Positions 7,480 to 34,587 of a stretch of 64,000 nt of DNA are shown in pieces. Source of the DNA: Croceivirga sp. (lineage in GTDB: Bacteria > Bacteroidota > Bacteroidia > Flavobacteriales > Flavobacteriaceae); NCBI GenBank assembly GCA_028284935.1, contig JANQQQ010000008.1, positions 124,001 to 188,000 of the forward strand, written 5' to 3'. The notes under the pieces are model-generated. The model was not told where the DNA came from and did no database searches. It saw only the letters and a list, made by a program, of their open reading frames with translations. The translations under genes and the position numbers were made by a program. Numbering within the stretch: the first letter of the stretch is position 1; each line of letters opens with the position of its first letter.

Positions 7480-7520
7480 ACAACATTCTTTTTTAGACAA
7501 GTAGTCCAATTCCTACATTT
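7480..7520 (+). promoter_or_regulatory. conserved upstream box and -7 box of the H-NOX operon (site A)
   Basis: TTTCACAACAT surrounds the ACAAC core at 7480. TACATTT starts at 7514, exactly 34 bases on, and the H-NOX start follows at 7541. The same arrangement recurs at 14997, 25391 and 34546. This copy lacks a clear second half-site 21 bases upstream. No -33 TTG stands at the usual distance, which fits a promoter that needs an activator. Confidence 0.55.
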
Positions 7521-7540
7521 ATCTCATAATATTCTTTATT

Positions 7541-8083
7541 ATGAAAGGAATTGTCTTTACCGAGTTTTTGGAAATGGTGGAAACACAGTTTGGTCTTGAA
7601 ACTGTGGATACTATCATTGAGAATTCGGACTTACCTTCCGAAGGGGCGTACACTGCCGTTGGAACTTATGAATTTTCGGAAATGCTCCAATTGGTGACCC
7701 AATTGAGTGGTACCACCCATATGCCTGTCAATGATTTGTTGTATGCTTTTGGTCTTTACTTATTTGAAGGCTTGCTAAAAGCACACCCAGAGGTCGTAAG
7801 TAGCTACAAAAATCCCCTAGGACTTCTTTACTCCATTGAAAACCATATTCATATCCATGTAAAGAAGCTATATCCCGATGCGGAATTACCCAGTTTTAAA
7901 ATATTGGAAAAAACCGATAATTCATTGACCATGGTCTACAGCTCCTCGAGGGGATTGTATGCCTTGGCGCATGGACTTATCGTAAAAACATTTGAGCATT
8001 TTAATAAAAGTGCCCACGTAGAAATGGAATTGTTAAATGAGCAGGGAACAGAAGTCAAGTTTGCCATTGTCCAAAAAGGATAA
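7541..8083 (+). CDS. H-NOX (HNOB) heme-based gas/redox sensor protein
   Basis: 180 aa, the standard length of a stand-alone bacterial H-NOX domain. The proximal heme ligand is most likely His104 (seven residues before Tyr111 of KLYPDAELPSF, as in guanylate cyclase beta1). The heme propionate motif YxSxR is Tyr133, Ser135, Arg137 (YSSSR). In characterised bacteria such proteins bind NO (sometimes O2) and inhibit a partner histidine kinase or diguanylate cyclase, often controlling biofilm. Here the next gene overlaps by 47 bases and encodes a PAS histidine kinase, the expected partner. NO is the likeliest ligand, but the sequence alone does not settle NO versus O2. First gene of an eight-gene operon. 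Confidence 0.93.
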   Translation: MKGIVFTEFLEMVETQFGLETVDTIIENSDLPSEGAYTAVGTYEFSEMLQLVTQLSGTTHMPVNDLLYAFGLYLFEGLLKAHPEVVSSYKNPLGLLYSIENHIHIHVKKLYPDAELPSFKILEKTDNSLTMVYSSSRGLYALAHGLIVKTFEHFNKSAHVEMELLNEQGTEVKFAIVQKG

Positions 8084-10436
8084 GAACGAAGTCGCACTGC
8101 TCAAGCGTGCCCTTAATAGGGAGAAAACGGCGCGTAGGGCTGCAGAACGGTTATTGGAGGATAAGTCGAAAGAACTTTATGATGCTTCTTTGCACCTAAG
8201 GGAGGCCAACGGAAGGTTAGAAGCGCTATTGAATGAAAGTGATTCCAATATTTCAGGTGCTTTTGTCAACATTATCGATCCCTATGTGGTGATGGACCTA
8301 TCTACTAAGGTCCTGAATATGAACAGCAGTGCCAAGGAATTTTTGGGATTTGACCATACCAAAGAAGAGTTCTACTTGTCCGGCCTAGTTCACAAAGACT
8401 ATATTGAGTATACGGCAGCATCCTTTCAATCCTTGTTGCAGGTGGGTATGCTCAAGGACTACAATGTCAAGATTGTTACCAAAAAATTTGGTGAAAAATA
8501 TGTGAACATTAACGCCAGTTTAATTTATGATAAAAAGGGTACCCCAGTAGCTGCACAAGGAATCATAAGGGACATTACCAAGGAAATGCAGATTAAGGAA
8601 CTCCTGGAAAATCAAAAGCGGCAACAGGACATTATAGTAGAGAATTCTTCCCTAGGAATTTTGCTGGTTGTAGACGATAAAATTGTTAAGGCAAACAAAA
8701 CCTTTATTGAACTTATCGGGTACTCCGATGCCGAATTGAAGAAAATGTCCATTAATGATATTTCTACCATTGAGGACATTAGTCTCTATGAGGATCTTTT
8801 GGAAAACAATAAAAAAGGGGAAACGGATAAGTTTGCCATAGTCCGTAAGTTTCATAAAAAGAACGGTCACTCTATTTGGGGCAAGACCTCGGTAAGCACG
8901 GTCAGGAACCAAAAAGGTGAAATTGATTACAAGGTGGCGATGATTGAGGACATCACCAATGATAAAATTTCTGAAGAAAAGATTAAGGCCTCAGAGCAAC
9001 GCCTATCCACCTTAATTACAAACTTGCAGACGGGTGTCCTTTTGGAGGATGAAAACCGAAAAATGGTGCTGGCCAATCAGAAATTCTGTGAGCTGTTCGA
9101 TATTCCATTGGAACCACATAAGCTAACAGGGGTTAATTGTAAAAAGTCTCTAGATAAGTACAAGTATCTCTTTGTGGACCCTGAATACATGGTGAAGCGC
9201 GTAGATTCCATATTGGAACGCAAGGAATTGGTCCTTTCAGATGAATTGGAACTGGTCGATGGAAGGACCTTTGAACGGGACTACATTCCACTTTTCATTG
9301 ATGATATGTACAAAGGTCATCTATGGACCTATAATGATATCACCTTCAGAAAGAACTACAGAAAGAATCTGGAAATTCAAAAGGAAAAGTACAGCAGTGT
9401 TATAGCCAATATGAATCTTGGCCTTGTGGAAATCGATACCGAAAGCCAAATCAAGATGGTGAATAATCGATATACCGAGATGATTGGTCTTTCACAAAAG
9501 CGCTTGGTGGGCAAGAATGTTTTGGAGGTCATGGGCCTGGATGAGGAGAACTTGGCCATCATCCAAAAACAATTTGAAAAGCGGAGGAAGAATAAGTCCG
9601 ATTCTTATGAGGTACAAGTGAATGATGCCAATGGTAAGAGAAAACACTGGTTGATAAGTGCCGCCCCTACCTATGATGAAACTGGGAAGATAGTGGGATC
9701 TATCGGGGTACATTTGGACATTACCAAACAAAAGGAATTGGAACTCCAAAAGCAGAATCTGGTCAACGAACTGGAAAAGAGCAACCAGGGACTTCAGGAA
9801 TACGCCCATATCGTTTCACATGACCTAAAATCACCCCTACGCAGTGTAACTGCATTAGCCACTTGGTTACATGATGATTATAAGGATATTCTCGATGAAA
9901 ATGGGAAGTACAACCTACAAATGATGATGGAGAAGGTGGAGGGAATGGACAAATTGATTGACGGGATATTAAAATATTCAACGGTCAATAGTGATACCCT
10001 GGACCATACGGAGGTTGACGTTAATGAGGTGGTCAAGGAAATATCGGAGATCATTTACATCCCCGACCATGTAAGCATAAACGTGACCAATACCTTGCCC
10101 GTGATTCAGGCGGACAAGGTAAAAATCCACCAGTTGTTCCAAAACTTTTTGAGCAACGCCGTAGTCAATATTGACAAAAAAGTAGGGCTTGTGGAGGTGG
10201 CCACTCAAGAGAACAAAACCCATTGGCAGTTCAGTATAAAGGATAATGGGGTAGGGATTCCCAAGGAATACCATGAAAAAATATTTAAGATTTTTCAGTC
10301 CATTGGCAATAACGAGAGGTCAACTGGGATAGGATTGAGCATTGTTAAGAAAATTATAGATAGATATAAAGGAAAGGTATGGCTGGAAAGTGAAATAGGC
10401 GTGGGAACCACCTTTTATTTCACCATTAAAAAGTAA
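8037..10436 (+). CDS. multi-PAS sensor histidine kinase, probable H-NOX partner
   Basis: 799 aa, cytoplasmic (no membrane segment or signal peptide). An N-terminal coiled coil (about 17-68) is followed by four PAS domains (about 75-185, 195-312, 320-435 and 448-570). Then come a HisKA domain with phospho-acceptor His595 (VSHDLKSP) and an HATPase domain with DNGVGIP and GIGLSIVKK boxes. Coiled coil plus PAS with an H-NOX gene directly upstream is the usual layout of H-NOX-associated kinases. The start is taken as ATG 8037, inside the H-NOX gene; later TTG codons at 8061 and 8067 are alternatives. No receiver is fused, so phosphate must pass to the HPt or receivers encoded nearby. Confidence 0.9.
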   Translation: MSREQKSSLPLSKKDKNEVALLKRALNREKTARRAAERLLEDKSKELYDASLHLREANGRLEALLNESDSNISGAFVNIIDPYVVMDLSTKVLNMNSSAKEFLGFDHTKEEFYLSGLVHKDYIEYTAASFQSLLQVGMLKDYNVKIVTKKFGEKYVNINASLIYDKKGTPVAAQGIIRDITKEMQIKELLENQKRQQDIIVENSSLGILLVVDDKIVKANKTFIELIGYSDAELKKMSINDISTIEDISLYEDLLENNKKGETDKFAIVRKFHKKNGHSIWGKTSVSTVRNQKGEIDYKVAMIEDITNDKISEEKIKASEQRLSTLITNLQTGVLLEDENRKMVLANQKFCELFDIPLEPHKLTGVNCKKSLDKYKYLFVDPEYMVKRVDSILERKELVLSDELELVDGRTFERDYIPLFIDDMYKGHLWTYNDITFRKNYRKNLEIQKEKYSSVIANMNLGLVEIDTESQIKMVNNRYTEMIGLSQKRLVGKNVLEVMGLDEENLAIIQKQFEKRRKNKSDSYEVQVNDANGKRKHWLISAAPTYDETGKIVGSIGVHLDITKQKELELQKQNLVNELEKSNQGLQEYAHIVSHDLKSPLRSVTALATWLHDDYKDILDENGKYNLQMMMEKVEGMDKLIDGILKYSTVNSDTLDHTEVDVNEVVKEISEIIYIPDHVSINVTNTLPVIQADKVKIHQLFQNFLSNAVVNIDKKVGLVEVATQENKTHWQFSIKDNGVGIPKEYHEKIFKIFQSIGNNERSTGIGLSIVKKIIDRYKGKVWLESEIGVGTTFYFTIKK

Positions 10437-10455
10437 AACAGAAAATTAGGAAGTT

Positions 10456-12956: not shown

Positions 12957-12957
12957 G

Positions 12958-13674
12958 GTGAAATGTATTATTGTAGATGATGAGGCAACGGCACGGGCAA
13001 TAATTGCGGAAATCTGCAGCAATTTTCCGGAATTGGAAGTTGTAGCACAGTTTCCCAATGCACTGGAAGCCCTTAAATACCTTAATCAGAACAATGTGGA
13101 TGTTATTTTCTTGGACATTCATATGCCCTTGTTAACAGGAATAGATTTTATTCAAACAGTGAAGAACCCTCCAAAAGTGGTCTTAACAACCTCGGACAGG
13201 AAGTTTGCCATTGAAGCATTTGAATATGATTTCATAGTGGATTATTTAGTGAAACCGGTGACCCATAAAAGATTTCAAAAAACCATTGGTAAACTAAAAA
13301 ATGCATTCGCGCCAGCCCTAACAGATTTAGGAGATGGACCATCTCCATTGGAATCCCAGAAGGAAGAGGATTTGTACATCAATATTGATCGACGGCTTAT
13401 TAAACTTAAACTTGGAGAAATCCAGCTTATTGAGGCTAAAGGGGATTATATAGAGATAAAAACTATGGATGCTAAGTTCAGGGTACATTCCACATTGAAG
13501 AAAATCAAGGAGAAATTACCGGAATCGCTGTTTATGCAAATTCATCGTTCATTTATAATCAACTTCACAAAAATTATTGATATACAAGATAATAGTGTTT
13601 TAATTGATCGGAGCGTCATACCCATAAGTAGGTCGCAACGCCCCAATTTAATGCAACGTTTAAACCTTCTGTAA
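12958..13674 (+). CDS. LytTR-type response regulator
   Basis: 238 aa, starting with GTG at 12958. Receiver domain (1-120): acidic DDE at 7-9, phospho-acceptor D53 (FLDIHMP), switch Lys in LVKPVTHKRF. Then comes a LytTR DNA-binding domain (about 138-236) with the hallmark LIEAKGDYIEI, VHSTLKKIKEKLP, QIHRSFIINFTKI and IPISRSQR. LytTR domains bind pairs of direct repeats about 21-22 bases apart. This is the only classical DNA-binding output of the H-NOX operon and the best candidate to bind the repeated upstream boxes of this region (see findings). Confidence 0.93.
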   Translation: MKCIIVDDEATARAIIAEICSNFPELEVVAQFPNALEALKYLNQNNVDVIFLDIHMPLLTGIDFIQTVKNPPKVVLTTSDRKFAIEAFEYDFIVDYLVKPVTHKRFQKTIGKLKNAFAPALTDLGDGPSPLESQKEEDLYINIDRRLIKLKLGEIQLIEAKGDYIEIKTMDAKFRVHSTLKKIKEKLPESLFMQIHRSFIINFTKIIDIQDNSVLIDRSVIPISRSQRPNLMQRLNLL

Positions 13675-13704
13675 GGAGTGACTTAAAAATAAACAATACC
13701 TAAT

Positions 13705-14007: not shown

Positions 14008-14018
14008 ATGTTGGCGTT

Positions 14019-14878: not shown

Positions 14879-14975
14879 ACAAAATCAATCATTTGTTTTT
14901 TTAAGTGGTTTTGACCTGATACTTCGGGAAATAGGCTCTTTTAATGTAGGTAACAAACAGATAAAACACCCTTAC

Positions 14976-15037
14976 AACACATTGCCTTGGTTTTACAACA
15001 ATCAATTCTAAAAAAGTAATATAAATCCTACATTTCG
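14976..15037 (+). promoter_or_regulatory. conserved upstream boxes and -7 box of the first polysaccharide unit (site B)
   Basis: TTACAACA occurs twice, with ACAAC cores at 14976 and 14997, exactly 21 bases apart. TACATTT follows at 15031, 34 bases after the second core. The receiver gene starts at 15067. The 8-base words TCCTACAT and CCTACATTT are shared with site A. This is the first promoter of the polysaccharide locus. Confidence 0.6.
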
Positions 15038-15066
15038 TTATTATTTATACTACAAATCTTACAAAT

Positions 15067-15432
15067 ATGAAAATTCTAGTAGTTGATGATAAGCAATCAT
15101 TAAGCGAATTAGTAGCCCAGTTTTTGGGTCAGGCCTACAATGTTACGACTTTAGAAAATGGTTTGGCGGCGATTTCTTGGTTACAGGAAGGAAACATGCC
15201 CGATTTGATAATTACGGACTTGGAAATGCCCGAAATGGACGGTTATGAACTGATCAAACGTGTTAAGCAAACGGGTCTGTTTTCAGATATTCCCATCATT
15301 GTGCTGAGTTGCCGGGACAATAGTAGCGATCGTATAGAATGCCTAAGACTGGGAGCGGATGATTATATGGTCAAGCCCTTTAACCCAGAAGAACTGCTCA
15401 TTAGGGTGGACAAGCTTTTAATTCGCCAATAG
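15067..15432 (+). CDS. single-domain response regulator (receiver) leading the polysaccharide operon
   Basis: 121 aa, receiver only. Acidic DDK at 7-9, phospho-acceptor D51 (IITDLEMPEMDGYE) and K103 (MVKPFNPEEL) are all present, so it should be phosphorylatable. It is the first gene of the 15-25 kb polysaccharide unit and is followed after 2 bases by a priming transferase that itself carries a degenerate receiver. A role in controlling the assembly machinery by protein contact is more likely than transcriptional control, because no output domain exists. Its kinase is not identified; the H-NOX operon kinases and the kinase at 33258 are candidates. Confidence 0.88.
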   Translation: MKILVVDDKQSLSELVAQFLGQAYNVTTLENGLAAISWLQEGNMPDLIITDLEMPEMDGYELIKRVKQTGLFSDIPIIVLSCRDNSSDRIECLRLGADDYMVKPFNPEELLIRVDKLLIRQ

Positions 15433-15434
15433 AC

Positions 15435-16664
15435 ATGGAGGTACTTGCCAAGAAAGGAACTTCGGTACTCTATATCGGGGCCAATAAGCGGTTTGCTGAT
15501 GAATTTCATCGTTTTTCTGAAAGTGTAATGGTGAATACGGTGGATTCTACCCAAAACGCCATGCGTTGGTTGCACAATCATAGTGAATATCGTGAAGGTA
15601 AATGGATAAATACGCGCAGTGCGGTTGATGCGATATTATGTGAACGCAGTCTTTCGGACAAGCAGCTTAAGGAGTTTCGTAACTACTTGGTTCAAATCTT
15701 TGACCCCTCCAAGAAAATACCCTTGGTCCTTCTTTGTGAAAAGGTATCAAAAAAGGAAAAAATAATAGCCTTGGAAAATGGATTTGATGACATTTTTGTC
15801 CATCCCATCAGTTTTGATCAGGTATTGGAGCGGATTGGATTCTTAAAAGAGTTAAAGAACAACTTAAGGTCACAAGAAATTTCAAGTGTCCAAAAACAAG
15901 TCAAGCAATATAAAATTGGATTTTGGAAAAGAAGCTTCGATATTATTTTGGCAGGATCCGTTCTTTTATTGGCGGCCCCCTTTCTTCTTTTGGTGATTTT
16001 GGCCATAAGGCTCGAGTCCAAGGGAAAAGTATATTACATCTCCAAAAGAGTGGGTACTGGATATAAAATCTTCAACTTTCTCAAGCTTCGATCCATGTAC
16101 CCGGATGCGGATAAAAGACTGAAAGAATTCGAACATCTAAATCAGTACGTGAATGAGGATGACACTCAGCAAGGTGAAGAATCCATTGCTGAAGTGGCAG
16201 AAGAAAATGGAGTTAAACTGATAAGTGATGATGCCGAGGTCGATGAAAAAATTCACAATGAAAAACGGAAAAAGAGTGCGGAAAGTGCTTTTGTGAAGTT
16301 TGATAACGACCCAAGGATTACTAAAGTTGGAAAGATTATTAGGAAGCTGAGCATTGATGAACTTCCACAATTGATCAATGTGTTAAGAGGGGATATGTCC
16401 ATAGTAGGCAATAGGCCATTGCCTTTATATGAGGCAGAAATGATAACTACGGATGAATCCACGGAACGGTTCAATGGTCCTGCTGGAATTACCGGTCTAT
16501 GGCAAGTTGAAGCCCGTGGGCGTACCTCCAAGATGTCTCCTGAAGAAAGAAAGCAATTGGATGTGAAGTATGTAGAATATGCCAATAGTAAGTATGCCTT
16601 CCTGTGGGATATGTGGATTATACTTAGAACGTTTAAAGCAGTTTTCCAAAAGGAAAATGTATAA
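15435..16664 (+). CDS. polyprenyl-phosphate sugar-1-phosphate transferase with N-terminal degenerate receiver
   Basis: 409 aa. Residues 1-140 resemble a receiver domain but have Glu70 in place of the phospho-Asp (ILCERSL) and His123 in place of the switch Lys (FVHPISF), so it is probably not phosphorylated. Residues about 163-409 are a bacterial sugar transferase: a membrane helix (168-190), KLRSM, the catalytic block SIDELPQLINVLRGDMSIVG, NRPLPLYEAE and GITGLWQVEARG. An acidic insertion of about 45 residues lies between KLRSM and DPRITKVG, as is usual in Bacteroidota members. The enzyme starts repeat-unit synthesis by loading the first sugar phosphate on undecaprenyl phosphate at the inner membrane. 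Confidence 0.9.
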   Translation: MEVLAKKGTSVLYIGANKRFADEFHRFSESVMVNTVDSTQNAMRWLHNHSEYREGKWINTRSAVDAILCERSLSDKQLKEFRNYLVQIFDPSKKIPLVLLCEKVSKKEKIIALENGFDDIFVHPISFDQVLERIGFLKELKNNLRSQEISSVQKQVKQYKIGFWKRSFDIILAGSVLLLAAPFLLLVILAIRLESKGKVYYISKRVGTGYKIFNFLKLRSMYPDADKRLKEFEHLNQYVNEDDTQQGEESIAEVAEENGVKLISDDAEVDEKIHNEKRKKSAESAFVKFDNDPRITKVGKIIRKLSIDELPQLINVLRGDMSIVGNRPLPLYEAEMITTDESTERFNGPAGITGLWQVEARGRTSKMSPEERKQLDVKYVEYANSKYAFLWDMWIILRTFKAVFQKENV

Positions 16665-16666
16665 GA

Positions 16667-17407
16667 ATGAAGATTCGGGAAAAATTATTTGTAGTGGCCT
16701 TATTTATGGCCACATACTCATTTTCACAGTCTATCAACGAGTTTATTGAGAATGGACTGAAAGAAAATGATATAAGCAAAAAATTACCACCATTGGACAC
16801 TTTGGTCGCTATGGCCAAAGAACACTCCCCCTTTATTAAAGTAACGATTAATGAGCAACAGTACCGAGATGGTGTGGTTTCCTTTGAGCAACGGGCATGG
16901 CTGGAATATATCAATCTGGAAGCTGGCTACAACTATGGAATTTTTGATAACCTAAGTAATCAACAAATTGCCGGTGACCCCCAAAGCCAAGCACTTTTTT
17001 CAACGGAGCAAAGTAGGTACCAAGTAGGTGTTTCACTTCGACTTCCCTTATCGGCCATAATCAATAGAAGGGCAAAAATTTTGAGTGCCAAAGGTGAAGC
17101 AAAAAAGGCCCGTTTTGAAACCCAGGTAGCCGAAATGGAACTCGAACAAAAAGTGGTTACCCTTTACAACGACTTGCTCAAGGTCCATCGAATGTTCTTT
17201 TTGGCCAGTTCCATTGTGGACAATTTTAGGATTCAGTCCATTAGGGCAGAAAAGGAATTTTCAAATGGTATCATAAACATTACGGAATATACACGTTTGC
17301 AACAGATGCTGAACCAAGCTGCCATGAATTACGAGTTGCAGCGATCTGATTTTGTTGCTGCAGTGATGGCCTTGGAGCACATTACTGGGGCAGATTTTGA
17401 TATTTAA
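16667..17407 (+). CDS. TolC-family outer-membrane-type protein, half length
   Basis: 246 aa with a signal peptide (LFVVALFMATYSFSQ). It has the OEP helix pattern (DTLVAMAKEHSPFIKV, a VGVSLRLPLS strand, long helices with VAEMELEQKVVTLYNDLL and EYTRLQQMLNQAAMNYELQ), but only about half the length of TolC, i.e. one of the two structural repeats. It sits between the priming transferase and the Wzz-like protein, where a Wza-type export porin would be expected; no Wza-like gene is present in the window. It may form the periplasmic or outer-membrane part of polysaccharide export. The frame is intact, so this is not a frameshift remnant. Confidence 0.7.
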   Translation: MKIREKLFVVALFMATYSFSQSINEFIENGLKENDISKKLPPLDTLVAMAKEHSPFIKVTINEQQYRDGVVSFEQRAWLEYINLEAGYNYGIFDNLSNQQIAGDPQSQALFSTEQSRYQVGVSLRLPLSAIINRRAKILSAKGEAKKARFETQVAEMELEQKVVTLYNDLLKVHRMFFLASSIVDNFRIQSIRAEKEFSNGIINITEYTRLQQMLNQAAMNYELQRSDFVAAVMALEHITGADFDI

Positions 17408-17409
17408 CT

Positions 17410-23358: not shown

Positions 23359-23376
23359 CTAGTAAAACACCCCAAT

Positions 23377-25344
23377 ATGAAGACTTTTAAAAACCTATTG
23401 TTTTATTCTTTTTTGGCACTCTGTATAAGCTGTGTCAGTGAAAGTGATTTGGATGATCCCGTTTTGGACGATGATGTTGGCACCACCGATGATGGTCCAA
23501 TTCAAGATGGACCATTGGCTGGATTAAATGTTTCGTCAGCTTTTGATTTTGCCACTAGCGAAAATGTAAATATTGTTTTGGAGGCTCCGCCGTTTTTGAG
23601 CAATGCCGTTTTTGATGTTTACTCGAAAAAGGATAATCAAGATAGTCTTTTGATAGCTACGGCCACATTTGATACCAATGGACGTTTTGAGAAGCGTTTT
23701 ACCTTATCCGTTCAAGCGGATAGTATTTTACTTTTCACAAAGTATATTGGGTTGATTGATAATATTAGACTGCCCATTGAGAACGGCTCCGTTGCTTTTG
23801 ACTACCGCCCTTTTTATGAAAGGGAAGACGGTTCCTCGGGAAAATCCATGAAACCCCAAAGAACCTTTTTTTCCTCCCAATTTGCGGTGGATTATACATT
23901 TATGGATACGTTTAACTTTCTAGGGGTACCGGATAATTTGGCTTTTTCGGATGTCATTCAGCAAAATCTGTTGGATGATATCAATGCTTCTTTACCAGAA
24001 AATGTGCAAGGCGGAATACCAGTTACGAATCCGGAATATTTGGCAGGTAAGGAAACCAATTTAATTACTACGGAGGAAGCGGATATTTGGGTAACGTTTG
24101 TTTCTGAAGGAGCGGGATATAGAAATGTATTGGGGTATTATACCTATCCCTTAGGTCAGGAACCGGAGACCGTTGATGAAATCACCGCTCATAATGTCAT
24201 ATTTCCAAATGCTTCTTTCCTTTTTTCCGGAGGAGGACTACTCCCTGGAGACCGTGTGTATCTAGGTCGATTTCCCGCCAATACCGTAGTCTCATGGTTT
24301 ATTGCGGCCAATGGTTGGACGGGTAGCGATGTGGGTGATGGGAATGGCTTATATTACTCCAATCCAGATTTTAATCCAGAGGGCACCGAGGAAGATAGAA
24401 ATCATATGGTATTGCTATATGACGAGGTAAGGGAACTTTCCATTTTGGGTTTTGAAGATTTACGAAGGGACCAATTCTCGGATGACGATTTTAATGATGT
24501 GGTGTTTTATGCAAGAGCTAATCCTATCAATGCCATTCAAATAGGCAATGTGGCACCTATAAGTACTTCAAATGATGCTGATGGTGATGGTGTCAATGAT
24601 GAATTGGATGACTTTCCCTTTGACCCCAATCAAGCATTTAACAATTTTGTCCCTTCACAAAATTCACAAGGGAAGATGGTCTTTGAAGATTTATGGCCCA
24701 GCCAGGGAGATTATGATTTTAATGACCTGGCCATGGACTATACCTTTAATCTTATCGCCAATGCCAGTAACGAAATCACCAAGATTAAAGGAACTTTTAC
24801 GGTTTCGAATATAGGGGCTTCCTTGCAAAACGGTTATGGATTTAGCTTACCTATTGAAAATTCGAAGATTGCGAGTATTGAGGGGCAGGTTTTGAATGCA
24901 GATTTTATTCAGACCAACTCCAATGGTACGGAATCTGGGACTTTGGCCAACGAATCCGTAATTTTTGTGGTGGGTAATGTGACCGATATGCTCAACGTAC
25001 CTATAACTATGACCATTACTTTTTCGAAACCTATTGGTCAACAAGAATTGGGCGAGGTACCCTTCAATCCATTTTTGGTAGTGAATGGGGAGAGGGCAAA
25101 GGAAATTCACTTGCCCGATTTCCCACCTACCAGTAAGGCGGACTTTTTAGGTACCGGTGATGATTTTAGTGATCCCGCCATTGGAAGATATTATAAAACG
25201 GAAACGAATCTTCCTTGGGCAATGAACATTTTTGAGGGATTTGCTCCTCCACCAGAGGCAATTCCCATAACTATTCAGTACCCGCGTTTTGTGAACTGGG
25301 CCAATTCTGGGGGCACCCAAGATTTGGATTGGTATCAACAATAA
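23377..25344 (+). CDS. LruC-domain surface lipoprotein (DUF4114/DUF4842)
   Basis: 655 aa. The N-terminus is a lipoprotein signal (LALCISC; Cys19 lipidated, with an unusual Cys at -3) followed by an acidic stretch (DDPVLDDDVG), compatible with surface export in Bacteroidota. A DUF4114-like block (GFEDLRRDQFSDDDFNDVVFY, about residues 361-381) and a calcium-type repeat DADGDGVND precede the LruC/DUF4842 region (FEDLWPSQGDYDFNDLAMDY and what follows). The biochemical function of LruC proteins is unknown. It ends the first polysaccharide unit, 18 bases after a glycosyltransferase, suggesting a surface anchor or polymer-binding role; this is inference. Confidence 0.8.
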   Translation: MKTFKNLLFYSFLALCISCVSESDLDDPVLDDDVGTTDDGPIQDGPLAGLNVSSAFDFATSENVNIVLEAPPFLSNAVFDVYSKKDNQDSLLIATATFDTNGRFEKRFTLSVQADSILLFTKYIGLIDNIRLPIENGSVAFDYRPFYEREDGSSGKSMKPQRTFFSSQFAVDYTFMDTFNFLGVPDNLAFSDVIQQNLLDDINASLPENVQGGIPVTNPEYLAGKETNLITTEEADIWVTFVSEGAGYRNVLGYYTYPLGQEPETVDEITAHNVIFPNASFLFSGGGLLPGDRVYLGRFPANTVVSWFIAANGWTGSDVGDGNGLYYSNPDFNPEGTEEDRNHMVLLYDEVRELSILGFEDLRRDQFSDDDFNDVVFYARANPINAIQIGNVAPISTSNDADGDGVNDELDDFPFDPNQAFNNFVPSQNSQGKMVFEDLWPSQGDYDFNDLAMDYTFNLIANASNEITKIKGTFTVSNIGASLQNGYGFSLPIENSKIASIEGQVLNADFIQTNSNGTESGTLANESVIFVVGNVTDMLNVPITMTITFSKPIGQQELGEVPFNPFLVVNGERAKEIHLPDFPPTSKADFLGTGDDFSDPAIGRYYKTETNLPWAMNIFEGFAPPPEAIPITIQYPRFVNWANSGGTQDLDWYQQ

Positions 25345-25369: not shown

Positions 25370-25432
25370 ACAACGTTAAACCAAGGTTTCACAACATAAT
25401 TTTCAATTCCTTAAAATGTAGGATAATATTTA
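25370..25432 (+). promoter_or_regulatory. conserved upstream boxes and -7 region of the second polysaccharide unit (site C)
   Basis: ACAAC cores lie at 25370 and 25391 (21 bases apart); the second stands in AGGTTTCACAACAT. The -7-like AATATTTA is at 25425, 34 bases after the second core (TAATATTT one base earlier is the alternative). The word ATATTTACAA is shared with site D at the same spacing (35). On the other strand the first half reads AACGTTGTT, which fits the LytTR half-site consensus at 8 of 9 positions. Confidence 0.6.
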
Positions 25433-25459
25433 CAATTAAATAACGAAAAAACTTAAAAC

Positions 25460-26812
25460 ATGAATATTGCAGTGGTTGGTACCGGGTATGTCGGATTGGT
25501 TACCGGTACCTGTTTTGCGGAAACCGGAGTCAATGTGGTTTGTGTAGATATCGACAAGAAGAAAGTGGAGATGCTTCGTAACGGAGAGGTGCCCATTTAT
25601 GAACCTGGTTTGGATGCCCTTTTGGAAAGGAATATAGATAAAGGTAGAATTTCTTTTACAACAAGTTTGGAAAAAAGCCTTAAAGATGCCGACGCTGTAT
25701 TCATTGCAGTGGGCACGCCCCCGGATGAAGACGGGAGTGCGGACCTTAAATACGTTCTGGGTGTAGCCCGCGAGATAGGACAACACATGGAGGATTACAA
25801 GGTCATCGTAACCAAAAGTACCGTGCCCGTGGGGACCTCCTATAAAGTAAAGGCCGCTGTAGAGGAAGAATTACAAAAACGAGGGGTGCGCATTCCATTT
25901 GATGTGGCCTCCAACCCTGAATTTTTAAAAGAGGGTAGTGCAGTTGATGATTTTCTTAAGCCTGACAGAATTGTAGTGGGTATTGAGAGCAAACGTGCGG
26001 AAAAGGTCATGAAGCGATTGTATAAGCCCTATTTGATGAACGGTCATCCGCTCCTGTTTATGGACATTTTTTCTTCGGAAATGACCAAGTATGCCGCCAA
26101 CTCTATGCTGGCAACCAAAATTAGCTTTATGAATGACATCGCCAATCTGTGTGAATTGGTCGGTGCCAATGTAGATCTGGTGCGTAAAGGTATCGGATCT
26201 GATACCCGTATTGGGAACAAGTTCATTTATCCGGGAACGGGATATGGTGGAAGTTGTTTTCCAAAGGATGTCCAAGCCTTGGTAAGAACAGCCGATGAGT
26301 ACGGGCATTCCCTGGAAGTTTTAAAAGCGGTGGAAGCGGTAAACTATAAACAAAAGACCACTTTGGTAGAAAAGATTAAAAAACATTTTGGAAATAATTT
26401 AAAGGGGAAACAATTCGGCCTTTGGGGCTTGGCATTTAAACCCAAAACTGATGATATGCGTGAAGCACCTTCATTGGTCATCATTGAAGAATTGATTGCA
26501 TTGGGTGCAAATATCAGGGCCTATGACCCTGTAGCTATGGAAGAAGCACAACGCATCCTTGGAGACAAAATAGAATATGCCAAAGACGAGTATGACGTGT
26601 GTATCGATGCTGATGCCTTGATTGTTGTAACAGAATGGTCGGAGTTTAGGATGCCCAACTTCAGGATCCTTGAGAAGTTGATGAATGAGAAAACGGTTTT
26701 CGATGGAAGGAACGTTTACGATCCCGAAGAGATGTCCGAGCAAGGATTTAACTATTACAGTATTGGTAGAACCGCGGTTCGTCAAGAAATGGAAGCATCT
26801 ACCAATGCATAA
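25460..26812 (+). CDS. ugd: UDP-glucose 6-dehydrogenase
   Basis: 450 aa. It oxidises UDP-glucose to UDP-glucuronate with two NAD+. The NAD-binding GxGxxG is in VVGTGYVGLVTG near the start. The catalytic Cys266 is in YGGSCFPKD, and WGLAFKPKTDDMREAPS marks the C-terminal domain. Length is normal. It is first in the 25.4-33.3 kb unit and is followed by UDP-glucuronate decarboxylase, so the product is probably used for UDP-xylose as well as for glucuronate incorporation. Confidence 0.95.
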   Translation: MNIAVVGTGYVGLVTGTCFAETGVNVVCVDIDKKKVEMLRNGEVPIYEPGLDALLERNIDKGRISFTTSLEKSLKDADAVFIAVGTPPDEDGSADLKYVLGVAREIGQHMEDYKVIVTKSTVPVGTSYKVKAAVEEELQKRGVRIPFDVASNPEFLKEGSAVDDFLKPDRIVVGIESKRAEKVMKRLYKPYLMNGHPLLFMDIFSSEMTKYAANSMLATKISFMNDIANLCELVGANVDLVRKGIGSDTRIGNKFIYPGTGYGGSCFPKDVQALVRTADEYGHSLEVLKAVEAVNYKQKTTLVEKIKKHFGNNLKGKQFGLWGLAFKPKTDDMREAPSLVIIEELIALGANIRAYDPVAMEEAQRILGDKIEYAKDEYDVCIDADALIVVTEWSEFRMPNFRILEKLMNEKTVFDGRNVYDPEEMSEQGFNYYSIGRTAVRQEMEASTNA

Positions 26813-26836
26813 ACAAATAACAATCAATCGTAAAGG

Positions 26837-27805
26837 ATGAAAAGAATACTAGTAACCGGAGGCGCAGGATTTGTTGGATCACATTTATGTGAGCGACTTT
26901 TAAATGAGGGGAATGAGGTCGTTTGTATGGATAATTATTTTACGGGTAGGAAGACTAAAATCGTCCATCTTATGAACAACCCGTATTTTGAATTAATAAG
27001 ACATGATGTAACCCTACCTTATTTTATTGAGGTAGATGAGATTTACAATCTGGCATGTCCTGCATCACCGGTACATTACCAATACAACCCCATTAAAACC
27101 ATAAAGACCTCGGTGCTTGGTTCCATAAACATCTTGGGACTGGCAAAAAGAATTAAAGCCAAGGTCTTGCAGGCATCCACCAGTGAGGTGTATGGTGATC
27201 CTGAAATTCATCCGCAGCCCGAGGATTATTGGGGCCATGTAAACCCAATTGGTATCCGTTCCTGTTACGATGAGGGGAAACGATGTGCAGAATCACTTTT
27301 TGTGAACTACCATAATTCCAATGATGTTTTGGTGAAGATTATCCGAATTTTTAACACCTATGGTCCAAGAATGGAACCGGACGATGGCAGGGTAGTTTCC
27401 AACTTTATTATGCAGGCGCTTCAAGATCAGGACATCACCGTGTTTGGCGATGGAACCCAAACCCGAAGTTTTCAATATGTGAGTGATTTGGTAGATGGAA
27501 TGATCAAAATGATGGCTACCGAAGATGATTTTATCGGACCCATTAATATTGGCAACCCAGGAGAGTTCACCATGTTGGAGCTGGCTGAAAATATTATAGA
27601 TATCACGGGTTCTAAATCAAAAATCATCCATTTGCCCTTACCCTCGGATGACCCTATGCAACGAAAGCCGGATATTAGATTGGCTCAGGAAAAATTAAAG
27701 GGATGGGCACCTAAAGTGGATTTGAGGGAAGGTCTAACGGCAACCATAAAATACTTTGACGGAATGCTTCAAGATAAGTCTATCAAGGAACTGGTGAATT
27801 CATAA
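26837..27805 (+). CDS. UDP-glucuronate decarboxylase (UDP-xylose synthase)
   Basis: 322 aa short-chain dehydrogenase fold. NAD motif [10 protein letters not shown] (about 8-17), catalytic Ser-Glu block STSEVYGDP (114-122) and YxxxK as Tyr144/Lys148 (CYDEGKR). [12 protein letters not shown] and the [10 protein letters not shown] block are typical of UXS enzymes. It converts UDP-glucuronate to UDP-xylose. It follows ugd by 24 bases, completing a two-step pathway from UDP-glucose. The close relative ArnA/UDP-Ara4N branch is less likely because the protein is not fused to a formyltransferase. Confidence 0.92.
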
Positions 27806-27828
27806 GTTAAGTTTTAAATAAGGAGAAG

Positions 27829-29034
27829 ATGGATGCACTTCAAATTTCGGTCGGTGTTTTGGAGATGGTATTGTTGGTCTATTTTGGTTTTGCATCCATC
27901 TATATTTTTGTTTTTGCCCTAGCGGGTTTGTTCGAGGCAAAAAAGAAACCCAAAATTTTAAACAAGCAGCGCAAGTTTGCTGTTCTTATCCCTGGATATA
28001 AAGAGGACAATGTTATCGTTGAGGTTGCTAGGCGGGCCCTGGAACAAAGCTACCCCGAAGCCTTGTTCGATGTGGTCATTATTGCGGACTCTTTCCAAGA
28101 AATTACCTTACAAAAGTTGAGAACACTGCCTATTGAATTGGTGGAGGTTTCTTTTGATAAAAGTACTAAATCCAAAGCGCTGAATAGCGCCATGGAATGC
28201 ATAGGTGATGCCTATGACGTGGCCTTAGTATTGGATGCCGATAACATCATGGAGTTCGATTTTGTTGAACGTATCAATGAGTCTTTCAATAGGGGATATA
28301 AAGTGGTTCAAGGCCATAGAATTGCCAAAAATACCAACACGCCAATGGCCATCTTAGATGCCATAAGTGAAGAAGTAAACAACCATATTTTTAGAAAGGG
28401 GCACCGCGTTTTGGGCCTCTCTTCAGCATTGATTGGATCGGGAATGGCTTTTGATTATCACTTCTTTAAGACCACCATGGCAAAAGTGAATGCTGTGGGC
28501 GGTTTTGACAAAGAACTGGAACTGAAACTGCTGTGTAACAGGAACCAAATAGAATATCTGCACCAGGCTTATGTTTTGGACGAAAAAGTGCAGAAATCCG
28601 AGGTATTTGCGAATCAACGCAAGAGATGGCTTTCGGCCCAGTTTATCTATTTCAGAAGATTTGCCATCTCGGGAATCAGGGAATTGGTATTACGGGGAAA
28701 TGTTGATTTTGCGGATAAGGTGTATCAAATGGTTTCGCCGCCCAGGGTGTTGCTGTTGGGTATGGTAGTGCTTATAACCTTTGGCTATATCATTTCCGAT
28801 GTCGTGTTCGGTGCTTCGCTGTTCTTGCTGCCATCGATGATTTGGTATGCCATTATGCTCATTACCGTTATGGCATTCTTTTTTTCCATTCCCAAAAGGT
28901 TCTATGGAAAAGAGACCTTAAAGGCCATTGCCACATTGCCCAAGGCATTTGGATTAATGTTTTTGTCACTTTTTAAGTTAAAGGGTGCCAATAAAAAATT
29001 TATCCATACCCAGCACGGTGCCATTAATACTTAA
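27829..29034 (+). CDS. membrane family 2 glycosyltransferase
   Basis: 401 aa. One N-terminal membrane helix (about 8-33), the GT2 catalytic domain with AVLIPGYKEDNV, the acidic LVLDADNIME and the processive-type NQRKRWLSAQF (a QxxRW-like motif), then two or three C-terminal helices (about 305-365). This layout is that of synthase-like GT2 enzymes that both transfer and pass the chain across or into the membrane. The sugar is not identifiable. It is 23 bases after the UDP-xylose synthase gene. Confidence 0.82.
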   Translation: MDALQISVGVLEMVLLVYFGFASIYIFVFALAGLFEAKKKPKILNKQRKFAVLIPGYKEDNVIVEVARRALEQSYPEALFDVVIIADSFQEITLQKLRTLPIELVEVSFDKSTKSKALNSAMECIGDAYDVALVLDADNIMEFDFVERINESFNRGYKVVQGHRIAKNTNTPMAILDAISEEVNNHIFRKGHRVLGLSSALIGSGMAFDYHFFKTTMAKVNAVGGFDKELELKLLCNRNQIEYLHQAYVLDEKVQKSEVFANQRKRWLSAQFIYFRRFAISGIRELVLRGNVDFADKVYQMVSPPRVLLLGMVVLITFGYIISDVVFGASLFLLPSMIWYAIMLITVMAFFFSIPKRFYGKETLKAIATLPKAFGLMFLSLFKLKGANKKFIHTQHGAINT

Positions 29035-29043
29035 TAACAAAAC

Positions 29044-30204
29044 ATGAGAATTGGAATTGAAGGACAGCGGCTTTTTAGAAAGAAAAAGCATGGAATGGAT
29101 ATGGTGGCGCTGGAGTTGATCAAAAATTTACAGCAAATTGACCAACGGAATGAATATGTCATATTTGTTAAGCCCGATGAGGATAATACCTGTATTCCCG
29201 ACGCTCCAAACTTTAAGATAGTTGAACTTACTTCAAAATTGGGGTATCCGGGCTGGGAACAGCTAGAACTGCCAAAGGCCGCCTATCGGGAAAAATGTGA
29301 TGTGTTGCATTGCACAAGCAACACGGGCCCTATTTTTTGCAAAGTCCCCTTGGTCACCACTTTGCATGATATTATTTATTTGGAGAGCATAAGTATTTTT
29401 AAAAAAGACGGAACATGGTACCAGAAGTTGGGCAATATGTATCGAAGGTACTTTGTGCCGCCCGTCATTAAAAAAAGCAAAAAAGTGATTACGGTTTCCA
29501 ATTATGAAAAGAACCGGATCAATAACCATTTTGGTTTTACTGATGACCGATTGACGGCCATTTATAATGGGGTGGGCGAACACTTTAAAAAGGTGACAAA
29601 TACGGAAATTCTTCATTCAATAAAGGAGGAATTTCACCTTCCGGATAATTTCTTCTTCTTTTTGGGGAATACCGATCCCAAGAAAAATACCATCGGTGTT
29701 TTAAGGGCATTTGCTGAGTTCAATTCGGTGTTTCCCGGAAAATATCATTTGGTGATGTTGGATTATGACGAATCGGAATTAAAACGGATGCTACATTCCA
29801 TTGGGGTTCCTAAGCTACGAGATTTGATTCACCTAACGGGTTATGTTCCAAACACCAAACTTCCTGCAATAATTAGTCAATGTACCATATTTCTATATCC
29901 ATCACTACGGGAAAGTTTTGGCATTCCAATCTTGGAGGGAATGGCTTGTGGGGTGCCGGTCATCACTTCCAATACTTCCTCCATGCCTGAAGTTGCCGGT
30001 AAGGATGCAGCACTGATTATTGATCCATTTAATCCCAAAGAGATAGCCAATGCGATGCAGAATTTGGTGGAGGATAACATACTTGCCAATGTTTTGGTGG
30101 AACGGGGTATTGAAAGGGCCAAGGGTTTTTCCTGGTCGGTGATGGCCAAAAACGTATTGGAACTTTATGAAAATGTACACAATGAACTAAATGTGACATT
30201 ATGA
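29044..30204 (+). CDS. family 4 glycosyltransferase
   Basis: 386 aa GT-B fold. The N-terminus MRIGIEGQRLF with a HGMDMVALELI glycine/substrate loop, TLHDIIYLE, ITVSNYEKNRI and the donor-binding block PSLRESFGIPILEGMACGVPVITS with the E-x7-E pair are typical of GT4. No membrane segments. The sugar is not identifiable. It follows the preceding gene by 9 bases and overlaps the next by 4. Confidence 0.9.
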   Translation: MRIGIEGQRLFRKKKHGMDMVALELIKNLQQIDQRNEYVIFVKPDEDNTCIPDAPNFKIVELTSKLGYPGWEQLELPKAAYREKCDVLHCTSNTGPIFCKVPLVTTLHDIIYLESISIFKKDGTWYQKLGNMYRRYFVPPVIKKSKKVITVSNYEKNRINNHFGFTDDRLTAIYNGVGEHFKKVTNTEILHSIKEEFHLPDNFFFFLGNTDPKKNTIGVLRAFAEFNSVFPGKYHLVMLDYDESELKRMLHSIGVPKLRDLIHLTGYVPNTKLPAIISQCTIFLYPSLRESFGIPILEGMACGVPVITSNTSSMPEVAGKDAALIIDPFNPKEIANAMQNLVEDNILANVLVERGIERAKGFSWSVMAKNVLELYENVHNELNVTL

Positions 30205-31394
30205 TTGAAGGACGTGACATCCTTGTTGTGGGTATCCAAGCATGGGATATTGATATTGGGAGCAATTGTAAAAACATTGCTTCCGAGATGGCCAAACACA
30301 ACCGGGTATTGTATGTTAATCCCCCTTTGGATAGGGCTTCCCTAAAAAGGGAGTACAACACGGAAAAAATCCAAAAACGGATACATATCAAGGAAGGAAA
30401 TGCCCCCGATTTGGTCAAAATTCAAGATAACCTATGGAACCTGTATCCAAAGACCATGACCGAATCCATCAATTGGATACCCGTTCATCCTCTTTTTAAG
30501 GTATTGAATAGAAGAAACAACAAGATTTTTGCAAAGGACATCCAATCCGCGCTGGATAGGTTAGGGTTTACCGATATTATTTTATTCAATGACAGTTCCA
30601 TGTTTTTGGGATATCATCTCAAGGAACTGTTGAACGCGCAATCGTACACCTATTACATGCGCGATTATCTAATTCGGGTACCATACTGGCGTAAACATGG
30701 GGAACGTATGGAGCCCCAATTGATACAAAAGGCCGACACCGTGGTCAACAACTCTACCTTATATGCAGAATATGGGGCCAAGTACAATCCCAAGAGCTTT
30801 ATGGTAGGGCAGGGCTGTGACGTTTCCTTATTTAATGATGAAGAGGGTAAAATAGAAATCCCTAAGGAGTTCAAAAACATTCCAAAACCAATTTTGGGTT
30901 ATGTGGGTTATTTGACCAGTATGCGATTGGATATACCCTTATTGGAGTTTTTGGCACAGCAACGAAAGGATTGGAGTATTGTATTGGTAGGGCCAGAGGA
31001 CGAGTATTTCAGGAATTCCACCCTTCATGAAATGGACAATGTCTATTTTTTGGGAAGCAAAGACGCACAACAACTCCCATCTTATGTTAAAGGCTTTGAT
31101 GTGGCCATGAATCCCCAGGTTGTCAATGATTGGACCATTGGGAACTATCCCAGGAAAATAGATGAGTATTTGGCCATGGGAAAACCTACTTTGGCTACAA
31201 GGACCAAGGCCATGGAAATGTTCAAGGACCATGTTTATTTGGGCTCTTCCAAGGAGGAATATTTGGAATTGGCAGAAAAGGCACTTCACGAAAACTCAAA
31301 CAGGTTGGTTGAAGCGCGGATTGCTTTTGCCAAAAGCCATACTTGGGAGAACAATGTTAAAGCCATTTACGAAGCCATTAAAAAATCAGCATAG
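30201..31394 (+). CDS. GT-B-fold glycosyltransferase
   Basis: 397 aa. The N-terminal half (DILVVGIQAWDIDIGSNCKNIA, VLYVNPPLDR) and the C-terminal donor domain (ILGYVGYLTSMRLDIPLLEFLA, VYFLGSKDAQQLPSYVKGFDVAMNPQ, KIDEYLAMGKPTLATRT) show a GT4-like fold, similar in layout to teichuronic-acid TuaH proteins. The similarity is by pattern and the family placement is less certain than for the upstream gene. ATGA-type overlap upstream and a 1-base gap to the acyltransferase downstream indicate tight co-expression. Confidence 0.78.
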   Translation: MIEGRDILVVGIQAWDIDIGSNCKNIASEMAKHNRVLYVNPPLDRASLKREYNTEKIQKRIHIKEGNAPDLVKIQDNLWNLYPKTMTESINWIPVHPLFKVLNRRNNKIFAKDIQSALDRLGFTDIILFNDSSMFLGYHLKELLNAQSYTYYMRDYLIRVPYWRKHGERMEPQLIQKADTVVNNSTLYAEYGAKYNPKSFMVGQGCDVSLFNDEEGKIEIPKEFKNIPKPILGYVGYLTSMRLDIPLLEFLAQQRKDWSIVLVGPEDEYFRNSTLHEMDNVYFLGSKDAQQLPSYVKGFDVAMNPQVVNDWTIGNYPRKIDEYLAMGKPTLATRTKAMEMFKDHVYLGSSKEEYLELAEKALHENSNRLVEARIAFAKSHTWENNVKAIYEAIKKSA

Positions 31395-31395
31395 C

Positions 31396-32034
31396 ATGGG
31401 ATTAAAAGAGAAACTTAAAGGCAACGAAAAGCTAAAAAAACTGATGCATTGGTTGATGGTCCCTCAAGGGCAGGCCAGACCACGCCTTTGGGTAAAATGG
31501 TTGGTGAACCCGTTCTATCATAAAAAAGGAAAAGGCGCTTCAATTCGGCGAAGAACTAGAATGGATGTGTTGCCCTGGAATGATTTTCAGCTAGGGGCAA
31601 ATTCCACCATTGAAGATTTCACAACCATCAACAATGGGGTCGGACCGGTAAAAATAGGCGAGAACACCAGAATTGGACTGGGCAATACCTTAATTGGCCC
31701 GGTAACCATAAAAGATGATGTGCGATTGGCACAGAACGTGGTCCTTTCTGGTTTAAATCACAACTACGAAGATGTTGCCCAGCCCATTCATGCGCAAGGG
31801 GTATCCACTGCACCCATCGTAGTCGAAGAAGAAACTTGGATTGGCGCAAACGTTACCATTGTGGCCGGGGTCACCATAGGAAAACATTGCATTATTGCCG
31901 GGGGCAGTGTGGTGACCAAAGACGTACCACCCTATTCGGTAGCTGTTGGTAATCCTGCCAAAGTGCTAAAACAGTACAACCACCATACTGGGGAGTGGGA
32001 AAGAGTACAAAAGAAACAACCCGCAATTGTATAA
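31396..32034 (+). CDS. hexapeptide-repeat acyltransferase
   Basis: 212 aa from the ATG at 31396. An open frame reaches back into the upstream gene, but the ATG one base after that gene's stop fits best. Left-handed beta-helix repeats are clear (IGENTRIGLGNTLIGPVTIKD, IGANVTIVAGVTIGKHCIIAG), followed by the usual GNPAKVL. The catalytic His is probably in SGLNHNYED. It would O-acetylate or otherwise acylate a sugar of the repeat unit. The first 60 residues are basic and helical and may touch the membrane. Confidence 0.85.
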   Translation: MGLKEKLKGNEKLKKLMHWLMVPQGQARPRLWVKWLVNPFYHKKGKGASIRRRTRMDVLPWNDFQLGANSTIEDFTTINNGVGPVKIGENTRIGLGNTLIGPVTIKDDVRLAQNVVLSGLNHNYEDVAQPIHAQGVSTAPIVVEEETWIGANVTIVAGVTIGKHCIIAGGSVVTKDVPPYSVAVGNPAKVLKQYNHHTGEWERVQKKQPAIV

Positions 32035-32049
32035 TTCAAATGAACTAAA

Positions 32050-33261
32050 ATGGAAGCTCTACAACTATTTTTCTGGATTGCCTTATTCATCATTTTTTAC
32101 TCTTATTTGGGCTATGGTATCCTCTTATTTACCATTATCAAAATCAGAAGGATGCTTGGACTGGGAAAACCATTTCAGGGCAATGAAGACTATGAACCTG
32201 AAGTAACCTTATTCGTTGCCGCATACAATGAAAAGGACTATTTGGACGAAAAGGTGGCAAACTCCAAGGGCTTGGACTATCCCCAGGAAAAGGTAACCCA
32301 ACTATGGGTTACCGATGGTTCAGATGATGGTACACCTGAATTGTTGCGGAAATACAGAGAAGTCACGGTTTTACATGAACCCGCCCGAAAAGGTAAAATA
32401 GCTGCCATGAATCGGGGGATGAAACATGTGAGAACCCCTATCGTAATATTTTCTGATGGCAACACAAGTCTTGGTAAGGATTCAATCAAAGAAATTATCA
32501 AACTCTTCAGAAATCCTAAAGTAGGATGTGTTTCAGGTGAGAAACGGATTTATTCCAAAGATGCGGATAGCGCGGCTGGAGCAGGGGAAGGAATGTACTG
32601 GAAGTATGAATCCCAGCTCAAGAAGTGGGATGCTGAACTCTATTCCGTTGTGGGAGCGGCTGGTGAACTTTTTGCTATTCGCACGGAACTTTGGCAAGAG
32701 GTGGAAAAGGACACCTTATTGGACGACTTTATGATTTCACTAAGGGTTGCGATGAATGGTAAGACCATCCAATACAATCCTGAAGCCTACGCTATAGAAA
32801 ATGCTTCGGCCAACGTAAAGGAAGAACTGAAAAGAAAAGTCAGAATTTCTGCTGGTGGAATCCAATCCGTCGTCCGTTTGGCCCCACTTTTGAACTTTTT
32901 CAGATTTGGAACATTGTCTTTTCAATACATTTCACATCGGGTTTTACGATGGACATTAACGCCACTACTGTTGCTGTTGATTATACCCACAAACCTATTT
33001 TTGGCACTGCACGAAGGCCTATTTTCATTAGGAATATTTAGTGTGTTGTTTTGGGGGCAAGCGTTATTTTATGTGGCAGCCCTATTGGGATGGTTTTTGG
33101 AGAACCGTCAAATACCTCTCAAAATATTGTTCATCCCTTACTATTTCTTTATCATGAACCTTTCGGTCTTTTTAGGTTTTGGAAGGTATTTAAAAGGGAA
33201 TCAATCCGTAAACTGGGAACGCGCCCAAAGGGGAGGGCAAACTACGAAAGCCGTCGCTTAA
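32050..33261 (+). CDS. membrane family 2 glycosyltransferase (synthase-like)
   Basis: 403 aa. An N-terminal membrane helix (about 5-30), the catalytic domain with VTLFVAAYNEKDYL, VTDGSDDGT, FSDGNTSLG (a DxD variant) and DDFMISLRVAMNGK, then three or four C-terminal helices (about 295-385). This is the layout of polysaccharide synthases. It is the last gene of the 25.4-33.3 kb unit and overlaps the convergent kinase gene by 4 bases at the stop codons, so no separate terminator is visible between them. Confidence 0.83.
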   Translation: MEALQLFFWIALFIIFYSYLGYGILLFTIIKIRRMLGLGKPFQGNEDYEPEVTLFVAAYNEKDYLDEKVANSKGLDYPQEKVTQLWVTDGSDDGTPELLRKYREVTVLHEPARKGKIAAMNRGMKHVRTPIVIFSDGNTSLGKDSIKEIIKLFRNPKVGCVSGEKRIYSKDADSAAGAGEGMYWKYESQLKKWDAELYSVVGAAGELFAIRTELWQEVEKDTLLDDFMISLRVAMNGKTIQYNPEAYAIENASANVKEELKRKVRISAGGIQSVVRLAPLLNFFRFGTLSFQYISHRVLRWTLTPLLLLLIIPTNLFLALHEGLFSLGIFSVLFWGQALFYVAALLGWFLENRQIPLKILFIPYYFFIMNLSVFLGFGRYLKGNQSVNWERAQRGGQTTKAVA

Positions 33262-34394: not shown

Positions 34395-34420
34395 TGTTAA
34401 ATAGCTAGTATTGGAGTACT

Positions 34421-34457
34421 TAGGAATTTACTTCTTATATTAATAAGTAAATTCCTA
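34421..34457. promoter_or_regulatory. perfect 13-base inverted repeat between divergent kinase and rfbB genes
   Basis: TAGGAATTTACTT (34421-34433) is repeated inverted as AAGTAAATTCCTA (34445-34457) around 11 A/T-rich bases. It lies 27 bases upstream of the kinase start (minus strand) and about 90 bases before the conserved box of rfbB. With no U-run on either side it is more likely an operator or an RNA hairpin in the kinase leader than a terminator. Confidence 0.5.
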
Positions 34458-34524
34458 TAAAACTCTTAACGATTTAATAAGGAATATGGTATAATTTGGA
34501 TTATAAATGTAATTTGATGATTCC

Positions 34525-34587
34525 ACCACCAAAAACTAGGTTTTCACAACATTAATTCAACCAAGCAATTAAGTAAGAATATATTTA
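34525..34587 (+). promoter_or_regulatory. conserved upstream boxes and -7 box of the rfb unit (site D)
   Basis: The ACAAC core at 34546 stands in AGGTTTTCACAACAT. ACCAC, one base different, lies at 34525, exactly 21 bases upstream. The -7-like TATATTTA starts at 34580, 34 bases after the core. rfbB starts at 34610. Spacing is identical to sites A, B and C. Confidence 0.6.

Follow-up and report, generated by a model that had tools for sequence, protein, structure and literature searches.

Four units on the plus strand of a 64,000-nucleotide stretch of a Croceivirga sp. genome (contig JANQQQ010000008.1, positions 124,001 to 188,000; the whole stretch is called the window here and is G000:C16:124001-188000 in our numbering of the 4.23 Mb assembly) share one promoter design, in which ACAAC lies exactly 34 bases before the -7 box. 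Behind these sites, termed A to D, stand an operon for H-NOX (haem-NO-binding) and LytTR proteins, two polysaccharide units and an rml (dTDP-rhamnose) unit. The sites very probably belong to the regulon of a second LytTR response regulator, here called lyB, encoded on a different contig (C35:521910-522662, minus strand, 251 amino acids; PF00072 and PF04397 both above cut-off). lyB would activate from 21-bp direct repeats, with small RNAs, a kinase, polysaccharide genes and the H-NOX/LytTR operon as its targets. By sequence comparison, roughly one in five of the Flavobacteriaceae genomes sampled has this predicted regulon. The architecture, its spacing, its conservation and its co-occurrence with and adjacency to lyB were observed directly; from co-occurrence and adjacency we infer that lyB is the regulator.

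The first-pass annotation of this DNA had reported the 34-base distance at all four units, which stands, with the core of site B at 14995 rather than 14997 (7480, 25391 and 34546 at A, C and D). The half-site that it placed 21 bases farther upstream at three sites was found as well (ACAAC at B and C, ACCAC at D), giving a direct repeat of about 21 bases just upstream of the core promoter at three of the four window sites (not A). The description of the Bacteroidota sigma-A promoter in PMC6847099 has TTTG at -33 and TANNTTTG as the -7 box, and the -7 element as given there and in PMC9723704 spans -12 to -5, so ACAACA is predicted to cover -46 to -41, with the upstream half-site falling on -67 to -63. 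TTTG at -33 was looked for at the four window sites and found at none, in line with the earlier remark that no -33 TTG is present; -36 to -33 read TTTT, ATTC, TTTC and TTCA. Such a weak -33 box would be expected of an activated promoter. The -7 boxes follow TANNTTT at A, B and D and read AATATTT at C, and the final G occurs at none of the four; at all three sites beside lyB the TANNTTTG box is present (positions relative to predicted starts).

On both strands of the window, ACAAC-N29-WANATTT matches at sites A to D only. Scanned across the Croceivirga genome, as the first-pass annotation had proposed for the TAnATTT form, this pattern gives 22 matches versus 9 for the reversed control. Four of the 22 lie within these 27 kb, a length for which the density of the other 18 predicts about 0.12 (a calculation made post hoc). 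The companion scan for the 21-base repeat alone did not rise above its control: with the -7 box left out of the pattern and at most one mismatch allowed, the half-site pair occurs 154 times in this genome versus 204 for the control. The pair alone was therefore dropped as a marker, and the -7 box is needed in the search pattern. With the box included, ACMAC-N16-ACAACA-N28-TANNTTT was found in 85 of the 397 Flavobacteriaceae genomes that served for all profile counts, against 16 for the reversed control; strict patterns of this kind miss variant sites. When any gap between 24 and 44 bases was allowed in 25 genomes, 87 of 112 matches fell at 34 and at most four at any other spacing (38 for the reversed pattern, summed over all spacings), a peak whose height is biased upward because these genomes were picked from those already having matches at 34. 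That the pattern arose by chance, or is common to promoters of AT-rich flavobacteria in general, would agree with the half-site pair being no commoner than its control, but it is an extremely improbable explanation and was set aside on the genome counts and the spacing peak: together with the -7 box the pattern far exceeds its control, has one preferred spacing and is kept in orthologous promoters. Separately, repeats with a spacing of 43, TATAAGAAA-like and then CGTANTTTT, were seen at G304:C1:398234, G369:C1:2799548 and G135:C2:700052, and are perhaps an orthologous variant promoter.

Alignment of orthologous upstream regions, another check that had been suggested, shows the architecture to be kept. 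The LytTR protein of the H-NOX operon (named 12958 after its start in the window) was used as the sole query and yielded 79 loci, 42 with a usable H-NOX upstream region, the window not counted; the loci whose protein is most like the query are those of a Flavobacteriaceae isolate and of Croceivirga, Croceitalea, Allomuricauda and Flagellimonas. Before H-NOX, ACAACA stands at 34 bases in 16 of the 42 loci, at 35 in two (L019, L020) and at 55 in one, and was not found in 23. The promoter of the CheY-like gene behind site B has the 34-base spacing in 14 of 15 loci, the remaining one (L024) being one mismatch off, and that of the UDP-sugar dehydrogenase gene behind site C is kept in 4/4, with AATATTT as in the window. 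Two rmlB-like genes (L204 and L215) are preceded by sites resembling site D.

The first-pass annotation had proposed a single LytTR-type activator binding 21-base direct repeats and had suggested 12958, which would then couple sensing to polysaccharide production and regulate its own operon. Judged by comparison of genomes, the first part of this proposal probably holds; the identity of the protein is not supported. Orthologues of 12958 (E <=1e-60) occur in 155 of the 397 genomes and those of lyB in 82, the latter at a cut (E <=2e-85, identity >=59%) chosen by eye after the next matches were seen at 46%. Motif and lyB occur together in 81 genomes; the four genomes with the motif and without lyB (G232, G244, G268 and G378) carry a single match apiece, which is what the control also gives. 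Where lyB is present and a 12958 orthologue absent, the motif was found in 34/34 genomes, and in the reverse case in 0/107; with both proteins the count is 47/48 and with neither 4/208. Fisher's test gives P = 2e-78 for the association of the motif with lyB and 7e-4 for that with 12958, statistics that ignore kinship. Being a LytTR response regulator whose gene lies behind site A and adjoins site B, 12958 was a natural candidate, but it is only 28% identical to lyB, and the 0/107 and 34/34 counts led us to set it aside; that it activates these promoters and autoregulates its own operon through site A is very unlikely, the phylogenetic profile speaking against its binding there. The 12958 protein may act at other sites. 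Since site A stands before it, the H-NOX/LytTR operon looks like a target of the ACAAC regulon and is likely that rather than its regulator.

Adjacency points in the same direction. Among 40 loci fetched by the lyB protein alone (37 distinct places), the repeat is present in 40 and the full promoter lies within 1.5 kb of lyB in 39. Twenty LytTR loci of the Croceivirga genome were examined, with 16 further LytTR matches left out, and the promoter was found near only lyB and 12958 (site B lies next to the latter), the other 18 having none (0/18). Sixteen further lyB regions were picked for a divergent or partial lyB or for having no adjacent site listed before; 12 of them have a repeat site, nine with the -7 box in place, and up to five sites stand in a row (L289). 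A relative of the TPR/HisKA_2 kinase beside lyB is encoded in 7/7 lyB-holding loci of a set of 26. These observations bear on whether the repeat is bound instead by a third clade-restricted factor, or by several LytTR paralogues with a common recognition sequence. With 36 LytTR domain matches in the 4.2 Mb genome, paralogues are at hand, and co-occurrence within a clade is compatible with another clade-specific protein; the promoters nevertheless adjoin lyB and none of the other 18 LytTR loci, and most divergent lyB regions also adjoin such sites, which makes this alternative unlikely.

H-NOX promoters sorted by lyB status give a similar contrast, ACAACA standing in 18 of 20 lyB-positive loci and in 0 of 20 lyB-negative ones (lyB was searched in 49 genomes, L067 was left out, and five of the lyB-negative loci have a 35-48% relative scored as not lyB). 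This contrast is weaker than it appears, because H-NOX in lyB-negative loci mostly abuts the gene before it or lies very close to it. Several further points weigh against lyB as the activator at these sites. At site A, a half-site 21 bases upstream was looked for and is absent, leaving a single half-site. One genome (G343) has lyB without the motif; L028 and L036 have lyB and no ACAACA before H-NOX; in L023 ACAACA stands there at the aberrant spacing of 55; and L017 has sites A and B, with lyB not found in its 2.6 Mb assembly. No site was found near lyB in four of the 16 further regions (L280, L284, L287 and L294), or in the upstream region of lyB itself in the Croceivirga genome. Finally, lyB marks a clade, and the co-occurrence test covered two LytTR genes with shared ancestry uncorrected.

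The remaining sites in the Croceivirga genome suggest what else lyB might control. ACMAC-N16-ACAACA-N29-A..TTT has 10 exact matches: sites B, C and D, six intergenic sites elsewhere and one (C36:168142) inside an open reading frame (ORF) of 230 amino acids; with up to one mismatch there are 16, versus 5 for the control. Three of the six intergenic sites stand in a row behind lyB, two leading to short stretches with a hairpin-like repeat and a T run at their end, and the third to the TPR/HisKA_2 kinase gene. The site at C35:134961 precedes another candidate RNA of the family found beside lyB, that at C36:29711 a gene for a CHU_C/Ig-domain protein, probably type IX secreted, and that at C36:141905 a stretch with a short hairpin. 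An ECF (extracytoplasmic function) sigma gene lies behind a site with one mismatch at C35:464544.

Across genomes, 136 distinct pattern-selected sites yield the consensus ACMACA-N12-TTCACAACAATAATTT...TANNTTT. Crude sorting places 28, 14 and 8 of them before three RNA types; of the 86 others, 60 have an ORF of at least 70 amino acids close downstream. The largest family of candidate RNAs has the core TTTCATTTTCATATAGTGTTCTCG followed by a hairpin and a T run, and RNAalifold folds its 28 copies into one 11-pair 3' hairpin. With up to two mismatches the core occurs in 71 of the 397 genomes, in 42 genera and in every case with lyB (the reversed core gave no match in the same genomes), and the 11 lyB genomes that lack it are the ones in which lyB has 76% identity or less. 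The 25 distinct copies of the core in lyB loci are all accompanied by the promoter when two deviations are tolerated; with this tolerance the promoter was also found at 39 of 1000 random positions in the same loci, true sites counted in. Behind the same promoter, L220, L223, L225, L228 and L229 have tandem arrays of another RNA type, made up of CCCCAAAT and CCTACTT repeats followed by a terminator hairpin. Without G-U pairs, the hairpin test detected 6/28 copies of the TTTCATTTTCATATAGTGTTCTCG family and 14/14 of this second type, and a terminator scan with a loop limit of 8 found none in the lyB intergenic region.

Transcription and function of these putative small RNAs are predicted from such features. 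A known Rfam identity was rejected: Rfam 15 at gathering score matched one tRNA in five loci, leaving the RNA candidates unmatched, and none of six matches at E up to 1 in six loci reached its own gathering score. The pairing-target pattern AACACTATATGAAAATGAAAA, at up to three mismatches in 14 genomes, returned the RNA genes, near-copies and scattered weak matches; no recurrent extended target of the core was seen among these genomes, the flanks of the weak matches not having been fetched. Preferential pairing of the core with start codons was examined in 125 genes; a start-minus-internal difference as large as the real one came up in 15 of 200 shuffles. No description of a regulon or RNA of this kind was found in searches of open-access papers; the Flavobacterium psychrophilum transcriptome, as reported in PMC9723704, includes conserved small RNAs such as Rfp18.

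A second element, GTA-N10-TAC, overlies the -7 box at the window sites. With a GTARGA or TCYTAC half, and with the window counted, it occurs in 17/43 H-NOX, 14/16 CheY-like, 6/6 UDP-sugar dehydrogenase and 3/3 rml promoters (one UDP-sugar dehydrogenase and two rml promoters had been selected by motif), and in 0/50 small-RNA promoters. L028 and L036 lack ACAACA at H-NOX and keep the element there; L032, L034, L044, L054 and L072 have ACAACA and no such element. The element may bind another factor.

Taken together, the adjacent TPR/HisKA_2 kinase would be the likely partner of lyB and phosphorylate it. lyB would then bind ACMAC-N16-ACAACA, with half-sites near -67 and -46, two helical turns apart on the same helix face, and aid sigma-A polymerase where the -7 box is of the TANNTTT type and the -33 box is weak. 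Under its control would come the kinase gene, small-RNA genes next to lyB and at other places and, directly, four targets in the window: the H-NOX/LytTR operon, both polysaccharide units and the rml unit. The arrow drawn in the first-pass annotation would thus be reversed, with H-NOX and its LytTR protein as outputs. More tentatively, and as a possibility that we rate somewhat below even, the system could be a two-component/small-RNA switch of a large marine flavobacterial clade: lyB and its kinase would drive multicopy, often tandem RNAs (24-base core near-invariant, 42 genera) that regulate many genes post-transcriptionally, the same repeat would switch on exopolysaccharide genes and an H-NOX operon, and a second factor at GTA-N10-TAC would gate that branch only.

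The H-NOX operon comprises the H-NOX gene, two kinase genes and the LytTR response regulator gene. Between kinase and LytTR gene (window 12633-12956) lies a 107-amino-acid protein for which Pfam gave no match and whose sequence we take to resemble an Hpt phosphotransfer domain. Polysaccharide unit 1 encodes the CheY-like protein, a sugar transferase, an outer membrane export protein, a chain-length-like protein, Wzx, a Wzy-like protein, a glycosyltransferase and a DUF4842 protein.

Table 1. Promoter sites, genes and candidate RNAs (window positions unless a contig is given).
Feature	Position	Strand	Details
Site A, H-NOX operon promoter	7480..7520	+	ACAACA 7480-7485; -7 box TACATTT 7514-7520
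Site B, CheY-like/polysaccharide unit promoter	14974..15035	+	half-sites ACAAC 14974, ACAACA 14995; -7 box TACATTT 15029-15035
Site C, UDP-sugar dehydrogenase/polysaccharide unit promoter	25370..25431	+	half-sites ACAAC 25370, ACAACA 25391; -7 box AATATTT 25425-25431
Site D, rml unit promoter	34525..34586	+	half-sites ACCAC 34525, ACAACA 34546; -7 box TATATTT 34580-34586
GTA-N10-TAC over -7 box	7501..7516 (A), 15016-15031 (B), 25418-25433 (C), 34573-34588 (D)	+	sequence
H-NOX gene, first behind site A	7541..8083	+	PF07700
LytTR response regulator of H-NOX operon (12958)	12958..13674	+	PF00072 + PF04397
Polysaccharide unit 1	15067..25344	+	domain matches; predicted transcript extent
Polysaccharide unit 2: UDP-sugar dehydrogenase, epimerase, glycosyltransferases, hexapeptide transferase	25460..33261	+	predicted transcript extent
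rml (dTDP-rhamnose) unit	34610..37948	+	predicted transcript extent
RNA candidates with core TTTCATTTTCATATAGTGTTCTCG	G000:C35:521323-521822 (L164) and C35:134961		tandem arrays in several genomes

Flavobacteriaceae are important in marine polysaccharide turnover and have few mapped regulons. For a regulon in about one-fifth of the sampled genomes, a DNA site and the geometry of its promoters are now proposed along with a candidate for the regulator, and new small-RNA families are predicted together with a named candidate activator. The notion that nitric oxide (NO) sensing drives polysaccharide production becomes the reverse prediction, with the H-NOX operon itself an output.

In Proteobacteria, H-NOX-linked biofilm control involves an H-NOX gene with kinases near matrix genes, and the same gene neighborhood is seen here. 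The difference is that the H-NOX operon here carries a regulon site as a target, with no link from NO to the ACAAC sites. CiaR, of a DNA-binding family other than LytTR, acts via direct repeats at its small-RNA genes. As in the available description of the streptococcal CiaR-csRNA regulon, a response regulator would here stand over several related small-RNA genes; unlike CiaR, the regulator is of the LytTR family, and the likeness drawn here is one of regulon layout.

The closest parallels are the AgrA, YpdB and HdrR/BrsR systems, which, as far as their published descriptions go, share with the predicted lyB regulon a LytTR domain and direct repeats of about 21 bases just upstream of the core promoter. 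The 21-base period is compatible with the LytTR systems treated in PMC6193735, since the repeats there are in most cases separated by 12 bp and frequently stand 10 bp before the -35. In HdrR/BrsR-type systems, as described there, genes beside the regulator are under its control, which is also predicted here. What sets the present system apart from AgrA, YpdB and HdrR/BrsR is the predicted recognition sequence ACMAC, the Bacteroidota sigma-A promoter and a predicted regulon of small RNAs and polysaccharide genes; and unlike LytTR regulatory systems, which have a membrane inhibitor, lyB is a response regulator with a HisKA_2 kinase as its likely partner.

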